Virus record (IMG/VR): IMGVR_UViG_3300046460_000075
Span: 1 to 25,723 of that record
Length of the DNA stretch: 25,723 bases
Reading direction: 5' to 3' (one strand)
From: a virus
Of the stretch, positions 13,557-25,723 are shown one piece after another. The number at the start of each line of letters is the position of its first letter. The stretch's first letter is position 1. The position numbers were made by a program, and so were the translations under genes. Below the pieces are notes generated by a model that saw only the letters and a list, made by a program, of their open reading frames with translations, ran no database searches and was not told the DNA's origin.

Positions 13557-16500
13557 CAGGCCGCCTCCTCCGCTTCGTCTTCCAGGTCCACGCCGAGGTC
13601 ACGGCTGAGGTACCGGTGGTACAGGTCCCCGAAGCGGGTGTCGCGCTCCACCAGCCCGTCCACGACCTGGCCCCAGACCCGGGCCAGGTCCGTGTTCGCC
13701 TTGGCCCCCAGGGACTTGGCGCCGCCGGCTGCGCCGCGGGCGCCCAGGATCTGCACCACGCCCTTGCGGTAGTCCAGGTACTCCTGCAGCGTGCGCAGGT
13801 CGGTGCGGGACGTCTCTTGCGCCAGGGGCGAGGCGGCAACCTCGCCCAGGGCCGACACCAGGCGGTCCGTCTTACGGGCGTCCAGGGAGTAGAAGTCCTC
13901 TGACCAGGCCTTGTTGTAGAACGGGTTCTGGGACCCGTCCGGCAGGAGCGGGTCTCCGTAGAGCATGGTCACCGCGCGCTTGGTGGCGCGCAGGTCTTCC
14001 GCCCCTGCGTCCTCGAAGGACGCCAGGCCCCGGTTGACCAGCTCCGCCTGGAGCTTGTTCATCTGGCTGGTGTACTTCGCCCAGCCAGCCCGGCGCTGGT
14101 TCTCGGACATGGCCTGGTCAGCGGTCATCTTGGACCGCTGCATCTCCGCCCCGCCGGGGACCAGCGGGTGATTGAGCTGGTAGGCGTAGGCCTCGGGGGA
14201 GAAGGGCCCGTTGCCCTCCGGGCCCACGATCAGGGCGCCCAGCTCCGGGTGCTCCGCCAGAATGCCCGCGTACTTCTGCTGCAGCTCCACCGCCTTCATG
14301 GTGGCGGGCACGCCGGACTTGTTCTGGGACTGCGCCTGGGCGAAGACGAAGTACGACTCCCCGTAGCGAGCCAGGAACTCGTCATCCGCAGTCAGCGGAT
14401 CCTGCCGGCGCAAGGCGTTGTACTGGTCCCGGTAGAACTGGTACGCGTCCTTGCGCTGGGTGCTCATCGGCTGCGTGAAAGCGCTAGCAGCCGAGAACAG
14501 CCAGTACTTCCTGGTCATGTCCGAGATCTTCTCGGCGCTGGGCATCGGCTTGCCCAGCTCCTCGTGCTCGTAGGCGGCACGCTGCATGATCTGCAGCTTG
14601 ACGCGCTGGTAGCGCTCGTCCGAGGTGTCGAACGCGGTCAGGAAGTTCTTGAGCGTGGCCGGGGCCAGGAAGGTACCGGCCCGGCCCACGGGGCCGGTGC
14701 CGAACGGGCCGTCGATCTGCGGACCGAACGGCAGCACGCCCAGGTGGCGTGCGATCTCGGCGGCCTTCGGCTTGTCCTTGACGAACTCGTTGACCGGGAT
14801 CTGCACGATTGGGCCCACGCCCGGGTGGTACCAGGGGTCCCCCTGGGTCACGATGTTCATGGAGTTCTGCGAGAGGGAGAAGTTCCCGGACGACTGCTCC
14901 ATGCCGAAGGCGATGCCGATCGGGGATTCCACCAGCCACTTGGGGGCGCGGCCCACGATGTAGCGGTCCCCCTTGGGGACCAGCTTGCGGACCCACTTGC
15001 CCTTCTCGTCCTGCACCATGACGGTACCGTCCTGCATGATGCTGTTGCCCTCGGAATCCTGCATTCCGTTGAAGGTGGCCACTCCGGGAATGTGGACGCC
15101 TGCGGACGCCAGAGGGGCGTTGAAGAAGTTCGCAGCGTAGCCCACGACCTGGGGCTTGTCCGCGATGATGCGGCCCCAGCGCTGGAAGGCTTCGCTGGTG
15201 GCCGCGAAGAACGGGCTGATGAACCTCATGGCCGCAGCGGCGTCGCTGCGGTGGGCGATGTCGAAGACCAGCTTGCGGGTGTCCCGCAGCGCCAGCCGGC
15301 GCGCAGATGTGGCCAGCTCCTCCACGTCGGAGACGGTCCAGCCGCCCTGCAGCTCACGCTGCTTGGCCAGCGTCTTCAGGTGGCCCTCGTAGAGCTGGTT
15401 GAACAGCGGGTGCCGGGACATGCGCTTGGCCGGGATGTTCGCGGCCACATGGAACCAGGACTGCACCACGCGGTCCAGGGCCCGCCGGTACTTCAGCTGC
15501 CCCTGCATCCCCACCTGGCCCGTGTGGACCTCGGGCCGGTGGGCCGCGTTGGGGATGGCGTTCTTCAGGAACTCCGGGGTCAGCGAGCCCTCCAGGGCCG
15601 CCTGCCGGATCTCCGGCAGCGGCATGTAGTCAGCCACGTCGTGGTAGACGGAGCTGGCGTACTCCTCGGGCGTGACGAACTTCAGGCCCATACGGCGCCG
15701 CCAGGCCCGCCCCTCGGCGGTCCGGCGGATCCAGGTGGCCATCTCGGCCTCCGTGGCCCCCTGTACGGCCAGCCGTGCCAGCGGGTCCTGCATCAGCTGG
15801 TTGTTGATGGCGTGCGCCCAGGACTCGGCGTGCAGCACCTCGTCCTGCGAAGCGGAGATCACCTTGCCGCCGTGATCGAAGGACCGCTGCAGGTGGCCGT
15901 GGACCAGCTGCTTGTTGCTGGAGAAGATGTGCCCCAGCGACTCGTCCGGCGAGATGATCGTCTGGTACATCTCGCCCTCGCCGCCCTCGAAGGCGGCAGG
16001 GAAGCGGGTGTTCCCGATAGTCACAGCCTGGTTGCCCTGAATGACCTTGGTCTGCCGCTCCGCGGCATCGTCGGCCTTCTTTACCGACAGATCCCTGAAC
16101 CGCTCCAGGTACCCCGCCTGCGCCTCCAGGTCGCGCAGGCGCATCTGCCGGCCCGGAGACCCGACAGAATGCCGCCTCTGCACGTCTCGCAGCTCAGCCC
16201 GGCGCTTGAGGAGCAGCTGGTGGGCTGCCGCCCGCGTAGCGGGCCGGGACCGCGGCGAGAGGTTGCTGATGCGGTTCTGTGCCGTCTGCAGGCGCTGCTG
16301 CGCCAGCTGCAGATCCCGGGCCTGAGATGCCCGGGTGCCCGCTACGCGGGCTCGCAGCGGGGCCATCTGCTGCTCCAGCAGCTTCAGCTCGCCCTCGGCG
16401 TACTTCACGCCCTCCCGGGCGGAGTTCTCGATGGCGGCGTTCATGGGCCGCGCGTAGGCGCGAGCGGCGTTGGTGGCGCCGTTGCGCACGCCCCAGCCCA

Positions 16501-22821: not shown

Positions 22822-24771
22822 TCAGCTCAGCCGGTCCCAGCCGGCCATTCCCCCGTCCCAGGGCCTTGCCTGCTGCTGGGACAGGATCGTGTCGATGTCC
22901 ACGACCATCTGGTTCTCGCGCTCGCGCGCGGTCAGGAACTCGTTGTCCGTGGTGTGCCAGCCGTCCCAGGAGTCCGTCATCAGCTCCCGGCACCGGATCT
23001 CCACGAACCAGGCGGCCATCACGGTGTCCGTGAGGCCCTTGGTCTCCGGGAACCAGGAGCACAGCTGCTCAATGAAGGCGCGCACGCCTTCGGACTGCGT
23101 CTGCGACGGCAGCCGGATCAGGTTCCGCTTCTCCTGCCAGCCCTCGAACAGCGTGGCCATGGAGGCCACGCCGAAGTCGCTGTCCCACTTCTTGGAGTCC
23201 GTGGTGTGCCCGGACATCAGCACGCCGCGAGCGTTCAGGTACTCCCGGACCTCCCGGTCCTGGATGATCGACGCCTGGTAGGCGTTCTTCTCGATACGCC
23301 ACTCCGAGACGCCGTAGCGCTCGGTGATTCGGCGGATCTCGGAGCGCAGCTCATGCGGCGGCATGGCCTGCTTGTTCACGACCTCCAGGACCCAGCGCTC
23401 ACCGGTCTGCCGGTCAAGGCCCCAGGTCTGGATGGCGGTGTAGCCCGCGGCAGCGGGGTCCACACCGGCAATGACGGTCAGGCCGTCCATGCCGTACTGC
23501 CGGTGCTGAGGCTGGCCCGGCATCAGCCGGCCCGGGTAACGGGCCCGGTCGATGCAGCCCTGCACAGCCTCCTGCTTGAAGATCGCGTCGTCCGCGACCT
23601 GCTCCTGCATGTAGACCATGGACCAGTTGCGCGGCGACATCTTGCTGCGCTTGCGCGCCAGCGCCTTGCCGTGCCACATCGGCCACATGCCGTCCTTCGG
23701 CCAGCCCTCGGCCTCAGCCTGCTTGCGAGCGGCGATGGTGACCGGCGGCCGGTTGGTCTGCGGCCAGAGCGTCTTCCAGTCCTCCGGCTTGTCCGCGAAC
23801 TCCAGGACAGCCGGCTGGGTCAGGTAGGTCCAGGGGCTGCGCCCCTCGCCGTAGTAGACGGGCTTGAGGATCTCGGAGTAGAGATCGACGGTGTTCATGC
23901 GGGTACCGATGAGCAGCATCCGGCCGCCGACGTCGGCGACGCGGGAGCCGACGATGTTCTGAATCCAGTCGATCTGGCTCTGGAACTGCTGGTGGTTCGT
24001 GTTGTCCACGCAGTCATCCATGATGACCAGGTCAGTACGGGTGCCGTAGATCTGGCCGCCGATACCGACGGCCTCCACGGTGTACTCCTTCTCACCGGAG
24101 TCCGCGCCGGCCACACGGATCTGCGTACCGGACCAGGACGAGGCGCCCTCGGCGAAGCCGCCGGGCGGCCCAAAGGCCTGCTGCAGATCCAGGTAGGTCT
24201 CGCTCTCGGCGAGCCTCTGCTTGATCGAGAACAGGAACTTGGCGGCCATGGACTGGGTCTTGGACACCAGCAGGATGCGGATGTTCGGGTCCTGGCAGAT
24301 CCGCCACACCACGTAGTTCACGGTCAGCGTGGTGGACTTCGCGTGCTCCGGAGGAGTGTTGACCAGGATCTGGTCCGCGTCCCCGCGGATGTACCGCTGA
24401 TTGGCGTGGAGCCCGCGGGGCTCCCGCCCCTCCAGCAGGTCGTACCACTGCAGGTGGTGCTCGAAGAGCTGCGTGTTCAGGTACTTCTCGCAGAACTCTG
24501 GGAAGTCCGGCAGCTCGGCCCGGTTGCCCTTGGCCCGGTCGATCTTGGCCTGCAAGGCCTTGTCGGCCAGGGCCCGGAAGTCCGGGTCGGTCTTGCGGTA
24601 GTAGTCGTACGTGGACCGGCCGATGCCGGCCTGGCGGCAGCCCTCGTCCACGGTGTGGCCCTGGCGGATGGTCGCCAGGATGATCTGCTTCCGCTCCTTG
24701 GACGACTTCTGCGACTGGCGCCGGTCATGCGGCGCCAGCTTGCCATCGGCCATCACGCGCAGGCGTGCCAT
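22822..24771 (-). CDS. Terminase large subunit with N-terminal helix-turn-helix, 649 aa
   Basis: The ATG overlaps the preceding stop (ATGA); longer frames upstream are non-coding shadows. It powers DNA packaging through the portal and cuts concatemers. Residues about 24-75 look like a helix-turn-helix: RKQIILATIRQGHTVDEGCR and AGIGRSTYDYYRKTDPDF, a type more usual in small terminases. The ATPase follows: Walker A NTPPEHAKSTT (138-148, Ala in place of the usual Gly before Lys), Walker B DLVIMDD (247-253), motif III LLIGTR (286-291). The C-terminal nuclease is marked by VIAGVDPAAAGYTA (Asp438), WRIEKNAYQASII, and a later Asp. Its place at the head of the leftward operon is usual for packaging genes. 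Confidence 0.94.
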   Translation of the reverse strand: MARLRVMADGKLAPHDRRQSQKSSKERKQIILATIRQGHTVDEGCRQAGIGRSTYDYYRKTDPDFRALADKALQAKIDRAKGNRAELPDFPEFCEKYLNTQLFEHHLQWYDLLEGREPRGLHANQRYIRGDADQILVNTPPEHAKSTTLTVNYVVWRICQDPNIRILLVSKTQSMAAKFLFSIKQRLAESETYLDLQQAFGPPGGFAEGASSWSGTQIRVAGADSGEKEYTVEAVGIGGQIYGTRTDLVIMDDCVDNTNHQQFQSQIDWIQNIVGSRVADVGGRMLLIGTRMNTVDLYSEILKPVYYGEGRSPWTYLTQPAVLEFADKPEDWKTLWPQTNRPPVTIAARKQAEAEGWPKDGMWPMWHGKALARKRSKMSPRNWSMVYMQEQVADDAIFKQEAVQGCIDRARYPGRLMPGQPQHRQYGMDGLTVIAGVDPAAAGYTAIQTWGLDRQTGERWVLEVVNKQAMPPHELRSEIRRITERYGVSEWRIEKNAYQASIIQDREVREYLNARGVLMSGHTTDSKKWDSDFGVASMATLFEGWQEKRNLIRLPSQTQSEGVRAFIEQLCSWFPETKGLTDTVMAAWFVEIRCRELMTDSWDGWHTTDNEFLTARERENQMVVDIDTILSQQQARPWDGGMAGWDRLS

Positions 24772-25002: not shown

Positions 25003-25085
25003 TGGGGGGCCGTCCAACCCTGTCCATGCACATGCAAGTATTCCGCATGGCGGAAGTCGAAAACCAGCCAGCGAAAGAGGCGGAA

Positions 25086-25352
25086 ATGCGCCACCCAGTG
25101 ACGGCCAGAAGGGCCGGTAAGTGCCCCATCTGCGATGGGCCCATTACACCCGGGGAGAAAGTGGAGATGTTCCTCCGGAACTGGGTGCACAGCGGCTGTA
25201 AGGAAGTTGAGCGGACCCGACTCATAGTCAATTCGGACTATGCCCCAGTAGTCATTCCGGCCACCGAGGTAGTCACTTCCGGCCAAGTTATCGGCGTACG
25301 CCGGCTGAGGAGACGGAGCCTCAAGGCCCTCCGGGCCCGCAAAGGCCGCTGA
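25086..25352 (+). CDS. Small zinc-ribbon-like protein, 88 aa
   Basis: The chosen ATG (MRHPVTARRAGKCPICDGPI) has AGAGG five bases upstream; an in-frame ATG at 25047 has no such site but could serve a leaderless message. It has a CPICDGPITPGEKVEMF and WVHSGCKEV arrangement, with Cys13, Cys16, His34 and Cys37, a treble-clef or zinc-ribbon type site. The second half is hydrophobic strands (YAPVVIPATEVV, GQVIGVRRL), then a very basic tail (RRRSLKALRARKGR) suited to nucleic-acid binding. It is on the plus strand, divergent from the packaging genes and pointing towards the structured non-coding end. It may bind DNA or RNA there, or be a regulatory protein. Function unknown. Confidence 0.7.
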   Translation: MRHPVTARRAGKCPICDGPITPGEKVEMFLRNWVHSGCKEVERTRLIVNSDYAPVVIPATEVVTSGQVIGVRRLRRRSLKALRARKGR

Positions 25353-25395
25353 CCTGCGGGAACGTCAGTTCCCCAACTGCCTGCAGAGTGCAGGC
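25353..25395 (+). repeat. Two hairpins just after the zinc-ribbon gene
   Basis: GGGAAC-GTCA-GTTCCC (25358-25373) and GCCTGCA-GAG-TGCAGGC (25379-25395) are perfect stems of 6 and 7 bp. They start 5 bp after the stop codon, so they may end that message, but neither is followed by a U run. They also begin the hairpin array that fills the right end of the window. Confidence 0.5.
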
Positions 25396-25415
25396 GGATT
25401 TGGTGGCATCTGCTA

Positions 25416-25439
25416 AGCTGGACCTCAGCGAGCTGGACC
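25416..25439. repeat. Direct repeat AGCTGGACC
   Basis: AGCTGGACC occurs at 25416-25424 and 25431-25439, a 15-bp period with a 6-bp spacer. A tandem pair like this could be a protein-binding site, for example for terminase. A second direct repeat, GCGCTCTC, occurs nearby at 25450-25457 and 25471-25478. Confidence 0.45.
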
Positions 25440-25467
25440 GTCGAGAAAAGCGCTCTCCGGTCCCTGT

Positions 25468-25567
25468 GGGGCGCTCTCGCGCCCCCAAGAAGCCGCCGGC
25501 GGCGGCCCAGGATAACGCGCCCTCCAGGGCGCGCAAGGGGCCCACTGGAGCGGCCTCCAGGCCGCTC
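25468..25567. repeat. Cluster of four GC-rich perfect hairpins
   Basis: Within 100 bp are GGGGCGC-TCTC-GCGCCCC (25468-25485), GCCGCC-GGC-GGCGGC (25492-25506), CGCGCCCT-CC-AGGGCGCG (25516-25533) and GAGCGGCCT-CC-AGGCCGCTC (25548-25567). Stems are 6 to 9 bp without mismatch. The last two share a CCTCCAGG core. CACTGG stands on each side of the last one (25543-25548 and 25567-25572). The stretch 25353-25607 otherwise holds no gene that I can support. Confidence 0.6.
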
Positions 25568-25607
25568 ACTGGGGAGTTTCAGAGGGATGGGGGGTCGGAG
25601 ACCATCC

Positions 25608-25723
25608 CATCCCATCGACCCGGGGTTAAAAACCCCCGGGTCAGACAGGATCACAGTGGGTGATCCCAGTGGATCACCCCAGGAATAGGCCCCTGACCAG
25701 CGGAAACGCTGGTCGATGGGATG
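25608..25723. other. Four-way cloverleaf structure at the right end of the window
   Basis: CATCCCATC (25608-25616) pairs perfectly with GATGGGATG (25715-25723). Inside are three arms: GACCCGGGG/CCCCGGGTC with loop TTAAAAAC (25617-25642), GGGTGATCC/GGATCACCC with loop CAGT (25658-25679), and GACCAGCG/CGCTGGTC with GAAA loop (25695-25714). Arms one and three abut the closing stem with no unpaired base, and the two linkers are 15 nt each. Total 35 bp, no mismatch. The closing stem could be longer beyond the window, because 25602-25607 continues the CCATCC pattern. GGATCAC in the first linker (25648-25654) can replace the 3' side of the second arm. It could be an RNA or a DNA site; strand and function are unknown. 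Confidence 0.6.

Follow-up and report, generated by a model that had tools for sequence, protein, structure and literature searches.

The closest described counterparts of the locus analysed here are the direct terminal repeats (DTRs) of the Streptomyces podoviruses of the subfamily Beephvirinae (cluster BF: Manuel, RosePharie, FlowerPower, Immanuel3, Stella), for which lengths of 253 and 265 bp have been published (PMC9753666, PMC13097060). Folded ends of a different kind are those of Streptomyces telomeres and the parvovirus 'rabbit ears', in which the first strand pairs with a distal one around two or more hairpins (PMC4513846). In the telomeres of linear Streptomyces chromosomes and plasmids, palindromes I-IV are tightly packed, and palindrome I pairs with IV around II and III. 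Among tailed phages, short terminal repeats of the T7 type are direct repeats duplicated at packaging; T7 encodes a Holliday junction resolvase, and the processing of its concatemers involves hairpin intermediates. Hairpins also form the N4-type promoters, and compact multi-branched folds in the non-coding DNA of phages are known from the Phi29-type packaging RNA and from GOLLD/ROOL. To our knowledge, how linear phage genomes duplicate and cut their short terminal repeats is not fully settled.

The window, that is, the whole stretch of DNA under analysis, is a virus record of 25,723 bases that represents a contig fragment, and a sequence-only reading had noticed a four-stem cloverleaf at its right end. 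The same locus is present, at >99% identity, in a shorter public contig, L002, which extends past the end of the window and contains, on the plus strand, another dense series of hairpins followed by early genes. The non-coding region spans about 900 nt and harbors 24 perfect hairpins with stems of at least 6 bp, compared with 2.0 in shuffled sequences. The cloverleaf is one module of this hairpin array, which escaped the sequence-only reading because the contig ends there. The closing stem does lie at the contig edge, but its ending exactly at the last base, as had been noted, is a coincidence of the contig end, given that L002 continues with further hairpins.

Table 1. Features of the genome-end region and its surroundings (window coordinates unless another contig is named)
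Feature	Position	Strand	Sequence and remarks
Terminase large subunit	22822-24765	-	Residues 15-78 match PHROG terminase small subunit families
Left part of hairpin array	25358-25570		For example, 25468-25485, 25516-25533, 25548-25567
Promoter-like conserved block	25396-25439	+	CGGATTTGGTGGCATCTGCTAAGCTGGACC...; common to L018, L035, L049, L052
Left edge-like motif	25571-25579	+	GGGGAGTTT; terminal repeat predicted to begin directly after
Hairpin H0	25584-25608		GGGATGG ... CCATCCC; adjoins closing stem; sequence replaced in relatives, hairpin kept
P1 5' strand	25607-25620		CCATCCCATCGACC; 25608-25616 of the sequence-only reading is its outer part
Closing stem of the sequence-only reading	25608-25616/25715-25723		9 bp, perfect
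Arm 1	25617-25642; stem 25617-25625/25634-25642		9 bp; GACCCGGGG/CCCCGGGTC; contains the conserved core
Core	25624-25642	+	GGTTAAAAACCCCCGGGTC; its homologue in BF phages, GTTTAACAACCCCCGGGTC, lies about 21 nt inward of the DTR edge
Arm 2	25658-25679; stem 25658-25666/25671-25679		9 bp; GGGTGATCC/GGATCACCC
Arm 3 (P3)	25695-25714; stem 25695-25702/25707-25714		8 bp; GACCAGCG-GAAA-CGCTGGTC; GAAA loop; adjoins P1 3' strand
P1 3' strand	25711-25723		GGTCGATGGGATG; final G one base outside the window
Right edge-like motif	L002 4031-4037, equal to 25731-25737 outside the window		AGGCGAC; follows P1 3' strand

Several other elements accompany the array. The promoter-like block at 25396-25439, 45 nt in length (TAAGCTGGACC...GAGCTGGACC), precedes the array in several lineages and has no clear -35 element. 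Near the right end of the array (L002 4261-4307), there is a compact conserved element, CCGCYAGCCCCCTTGAGGGGGCGTAGGCGGAAGGGGG, which is found also in L009, L010, L013, L025, L029, L035, L038, L057 and L087, and in which a run of C has two possible partners, forming either a hairpin or a pseudoknot. Another conserved block, AGGCAACCCTCATnnGTGCAGGTCA, lies to the right of the array, ahead of the early genes, in L009, L010, L022, L033, L038, L049 and others. Between the terminase gene and the array, at about 25032-25352, a plus-strand gene of about 107 codons (phrog_1581) encodes a zinc-finger-like motif, CPIC...HSGC; relatives of this gene were found in L002 only, and L035 carries a similar small gene in the same place. 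A tRNA-Ala reported by ARAGORN at 16204-16295, inside the gene for a 1669-aa virion protein and on the opposite strand, is probably a false positive produced by the hairpin-rich sequence.

All four stems of the cloverleaf proved to be perfect where they had been described (9, 9, 9 and 8 bp), as did the two linkers of 15 nt each and the GAAA loop. The fold energies set the segment well apart from shuffled sequence: the minimum free energy of the RNA is -69.3 kcal/mol (z -7.9 versus shuffled sequence) and the energy of the DNA fold is -35.6 (z -6.5), with 0 of 200 shuffles folding as well. The closing stem, P1, actually comprises 14 bp (CCATCCCATCGACC paired with GGTCGATGGGATGG), the last base being located one position beyond the window and read from L002. 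The tetranucleotides GACC/GGTC are common to P1 and arms 1 and 3, so that the junction can branch-migrate. The sequence GGGATGG, which had been proposed to compete for the closing stem in a two-state switch, forms instead a separate conserved hairpin, H0, and a conserved switch of this kind is not supported. In L002, H0 folds together with the cloverleaf, not against it; for the window's own variant, a competing single-stranded DNA fold is predicted in which H0 pairs with the 5' strand of P1. The two contigs represent near-identical strains that differ mainly within H0 (window 25583-25600, L002 3883-3900).

Comparison with relatives shows that pairing is maintained. With the loci anchored on the core TTTAACACC-n-GGGGTCA, the order of the elements is constant, namely, left motif, H0, P1 5' strand, core, at least one arm, P1 3' strand, and right motif, where the left motif takes the form GGGG(n)(G)TTT or GGGGTCT and the right motif is of the type GnGGAC. 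This architecture extends to relatives down to 59% terminase identity. In 40 loci, P1 is perfect over 11-20 bp, compared with a mean of about 6 bp for the best inverted repeat expected by chance, and because these loci include 32 different 5' strands, all perfectly paired, this amounts to massive covariation. Across 11 distinct rows, a subset of the loci, 7 of the 14 P1 pairs are changed on both sides, the double-changed cells number 22 versus 7.2 after shuffling, and pairing reaches 98% in register versus 41-54% when slid; changes on one side of P1 are nearly absent. The homologous stems of the relatives contain 102 compensated double changes versus 6 uncompensated ones, so the pairing in these stems is maintained. 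A lack of conservation or compensation, the outcome that the sequence-only reading had named as speaking against the structure, is not what these comparisons gave. In the BF isolates and in the group with 50% terminase identity, P1 is at the chance level.

The connection to genome ends comes from the core in arm 1 and from the motifs that flank the unit. The deposited ends of six cultivated BF phages yield direct terminal repeats, with lengths of 253-276 bp in five of these; the Abafar record has offset ends, and the core of FlowerPower is slightly divergent and falls outside the stricter core pattern. In the orientation of the window, the BF repeat starts at GGGGACT/CACTCC (the slash marks the edge), and a core of the TTAACAACCCnGGGGTC or TTAACAACCCCCGGGTC type follows about 21 nt inward. 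The core occurs once per phage record that carries it, with 0 of 30 in the reversed control. The equivalent of the left edge is GGGGACT in the BF isolates and GGGGTCT in the 50%-identity group, and the intermediate lineages L044, L045 and L055 carry TATGGGGTCT or AAGGGGTCT, which bridge the BF edge motif and the GGGGAGTTT of the window. These edge motifs, which are short and were initially picked by eye, are present in their strict forms in 28 (left) and 25 (right) of the 36 distinct loci, compared with 3.5% and 3.4% of random placements, respectively. The 21 loci with both strict motifs show a spacing of 142-160 nt (142-148 nt in all but two), and a looser search that includes the locus of the window gives 137-160 nt.

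As in a Beephvirinae-type end, the core lies beside the terminase gene, its position relative to the edge being a measurement in BF phages only. Edge-like motifs stand with steady spacing at both borders of the unit, as putative cleavage sites. From homology with the BF ends, a terminal repeat is predicted to start after 25579 in the window and to finish at L002 4037, a span of about 158 bp that H0 and the cloverleaf would occupy. The earlier guess that the element marks a genome end or packaging site gains support from this homology, with the core located just inside the edge of the BF repeat and edge-like motifs bracketing the unit. The cloverleaf probably occupies the physical end of the genome in a Streptomyces virus.

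The terminase gene has relatives in Beephvirinae, with about 50% amino acid identity between the BF and window proteins. Eighty relatives were taken from viral contigs. The hairpin array lies upstream of the terminase gene when the terminase identity is at least 59% and is absent in the 50% group. Close relatives are found in five Streptomyces genomes, in one case, inside a 7.9-Mb chromosomal scaffold. In contrast to BF, the clade of the window includes at least one relative that is integrated as a prophage and has a serine integrase; within this prophage, the element occupies an internal position about 10 kb from the integrase gene, as expected if the virion ends join before integration. Given this internal position and distance, we rejected the possibility that the element is the attachment site of a temperate phage. 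Streptomyces sp. MP131-18 (L135-L139) carries an integrated prophage of the lineage that encodes a 672-aa serine-recombinase-like protein, whereas the BF isolate Abafar has been described as virulent. In another relative, G016 (L140 18-1679), the frame of the serine integrase includes, at the C-terminal end, a segment of an IS4/5-family transposase, which suggests an insertion. Relatives encode a helicase, a primase, a Cas4-like exonuclease and a RusA-like resolvase; in BF phages, the annotation includes a Holliday junction resolvase. Relatives of 45-47 kb assemble as circles with k-mer overlaps, a pattern equally expected under other packaging modes; a direct search for terminal repeats at the contig ends of complete relatives yielded only assembler overlaps, mostly of 127 b.

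Strong covariation is also what would be expected of a structured RNA, either a leader of the leftward late operon or a separate non-coding RNA, in which the hairpins and the cloverleaf would act, for example, as a packaging RNA. On the plus strand, single mismatches across all regions include 12 G.T and 28 A.C, and within the unit, the counts are 6 and 8, so there is no sign of a plus-strand RNA, and the RNA function read from the plus strand that had been considered is not supported. The same counts imply a moderate bias of the array towards the minus strand (28:12 over all regions), which resembles that of RNase P, our control, on its own sense strand (29 G.T versus 16 A.C), fits a leftward transcript, and counts against a DNA end. 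The right array, too, folds better as the minus strand (24 of 29). However, the unit has no such wobble bias (8:6), and in 33 of 36 cases the plus strand gives its better fold, the reverse of the array; P1 has almost no changes confined to one side; there is no Rfam match at either the gathering or a relaxed threshold, including the large ornate RNAs; and a consensus scan revealed no promoter-like site. No single transcript reconciles the wobble and folding signs, and the core and edges of the unit align to DNA ends in BF phages; for these two reasons, we prefer DNA over RNA. A leftward RNA is possible, and we consider the structured RNA explanation unlikely. A giant ornate RNA, which we considered in view of the hairpin density, is weakened by the lack of a wobble preference for the plus strand, and N4-type hairpin promoters were set aside given that the stem sequences are not conserved.

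Hairpins are not confined to the array. Perfect hairpins with stems of at least 8 bp exceed the triplet-shuffled expectation 7-19-fold in the window (positions 1-25000), a relative (L140-L141) and two BF genomes (L173 and L177), coding DNA included, compared with 3-fold in phiC31, 1.5-fold in the host and no excess in R4 and T7; across coding regions, they show no clear preference for the sense strand. This lineage-specific excess and the absence of strand preference are what a mutational by-product would produce, with template switching perfecting imperfect palindromes throughout the genome and the array being simply a place free of coding constraint. Such a neutral process, however, is not expected to hold P1 at a constant position with respect to the core and edge motifs, within a unit of near-constant length, across 40 loci with changing sequence, and we find it quite improbable as the explanation. 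A DNA process acting across the lineage may generate the hairpins, which the genome-end unit then keeps in a fixed register. The location of the palindromes between divergent late and early operons, the density of hairpins, and the helicase and primase genes of these phages would also suit a replication origin or single-strand initiation site that loads primase or helicase, but the coincidence of the core and bracketing motifs with the recorded edges of BF terminal repeats makes this a slim prospect.

On balance, it appears likely that the genome-end region (terminal repeat or concatemer junction) of a Beephvirinae-related Streptomyces podovirus has the cloverleaf as its structured core, which acts mainly as DNA. 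The fold and its covariation, the core, the motif spacing, the synteny and the recorded BF repeat edges are observations; we infer that the clade of the window possesses such repeats and that the unit folds in vivo. The unit would consist of two cleavage-like motifs about 143-160 bp apart that enclose H0 and a T- or cloverleaf-shaped fold composed of P1, an arm with the conserved recognition core, and an arm that adjoins the other side of P1. The N-terminus of the terminase, a putative small-subunit-like DNA-binding domain, would bind the core at the concatemer junction, and the terminase would cut at the flanking motifs. The repeat might be duplicated by strand displacement, in the course of which the strands would become single and fold into H0 and the cloverleaf; the folded displaced strand would then be prevented from re-annealing, and the end would be marked or protected. 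Extruded forms could be resolved by the phage RusA-like junction resolvase. Packaging of this type does not require the fold, as is evident from the BF phages, which lack P1 and H0. That selection favours folding of the terminal repeat as one DNA strand, in a T shape like those of parvoviruses and telomeres that serves in the duplication and maturation of the ends of a tailed dsDNA phage with a genome hairpin-rich throughout, is a more tentative proposition that we consider rather doubtful.

Among known systems, the Beephvirinae DTRs share with the unit the terminase-gene side, the core and similar edge motifs, but these repeats are 253-276 bp long and lack H0 and P1, whereas the predicted unit of the window clade, 137-160 bp, is fully folded. 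The tight packing of palindromes is as in Streptomyces telomeres, and P1 around the arms matches the pairing of palindromes I and IV in topology only. Unlike these telomeres, the element has an internal position in the prophage and in circular assemblies, and the sequence differs. The GCA (G:A sheared) loops of telomeres do not dominate (cGNAg triloops account for 5 on the plus and 6 on the minus strand of 92 unit hairpins), neither Tap nor Tpg was found among the ten early proteins scanned in one relative, and the array DNA has no match in phage and plasmid collections; membership among Streptomyces telomeres is not supported. T7, with which the lineage shares a phage Holliday junction resolvase, differs in having no excess of perfect hairpins. 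The multi-branched fold resembles those of the Phi29-type packaging RNA and GOLLD/ROOL, from which the unit differs in lacking an Rfam match and in wobble statistics without a plus-strand RNA signature. The comparison best places the element as a new form of phage terminal-repeat or packaging junction. A natural series in which one core and related terminases occur both with and without a covarying folded repeat would open the role of DNA folding at phage genome ends to direct tests and would tie these ends to Streptomyces telomeres and to the ends of parvoviruses.
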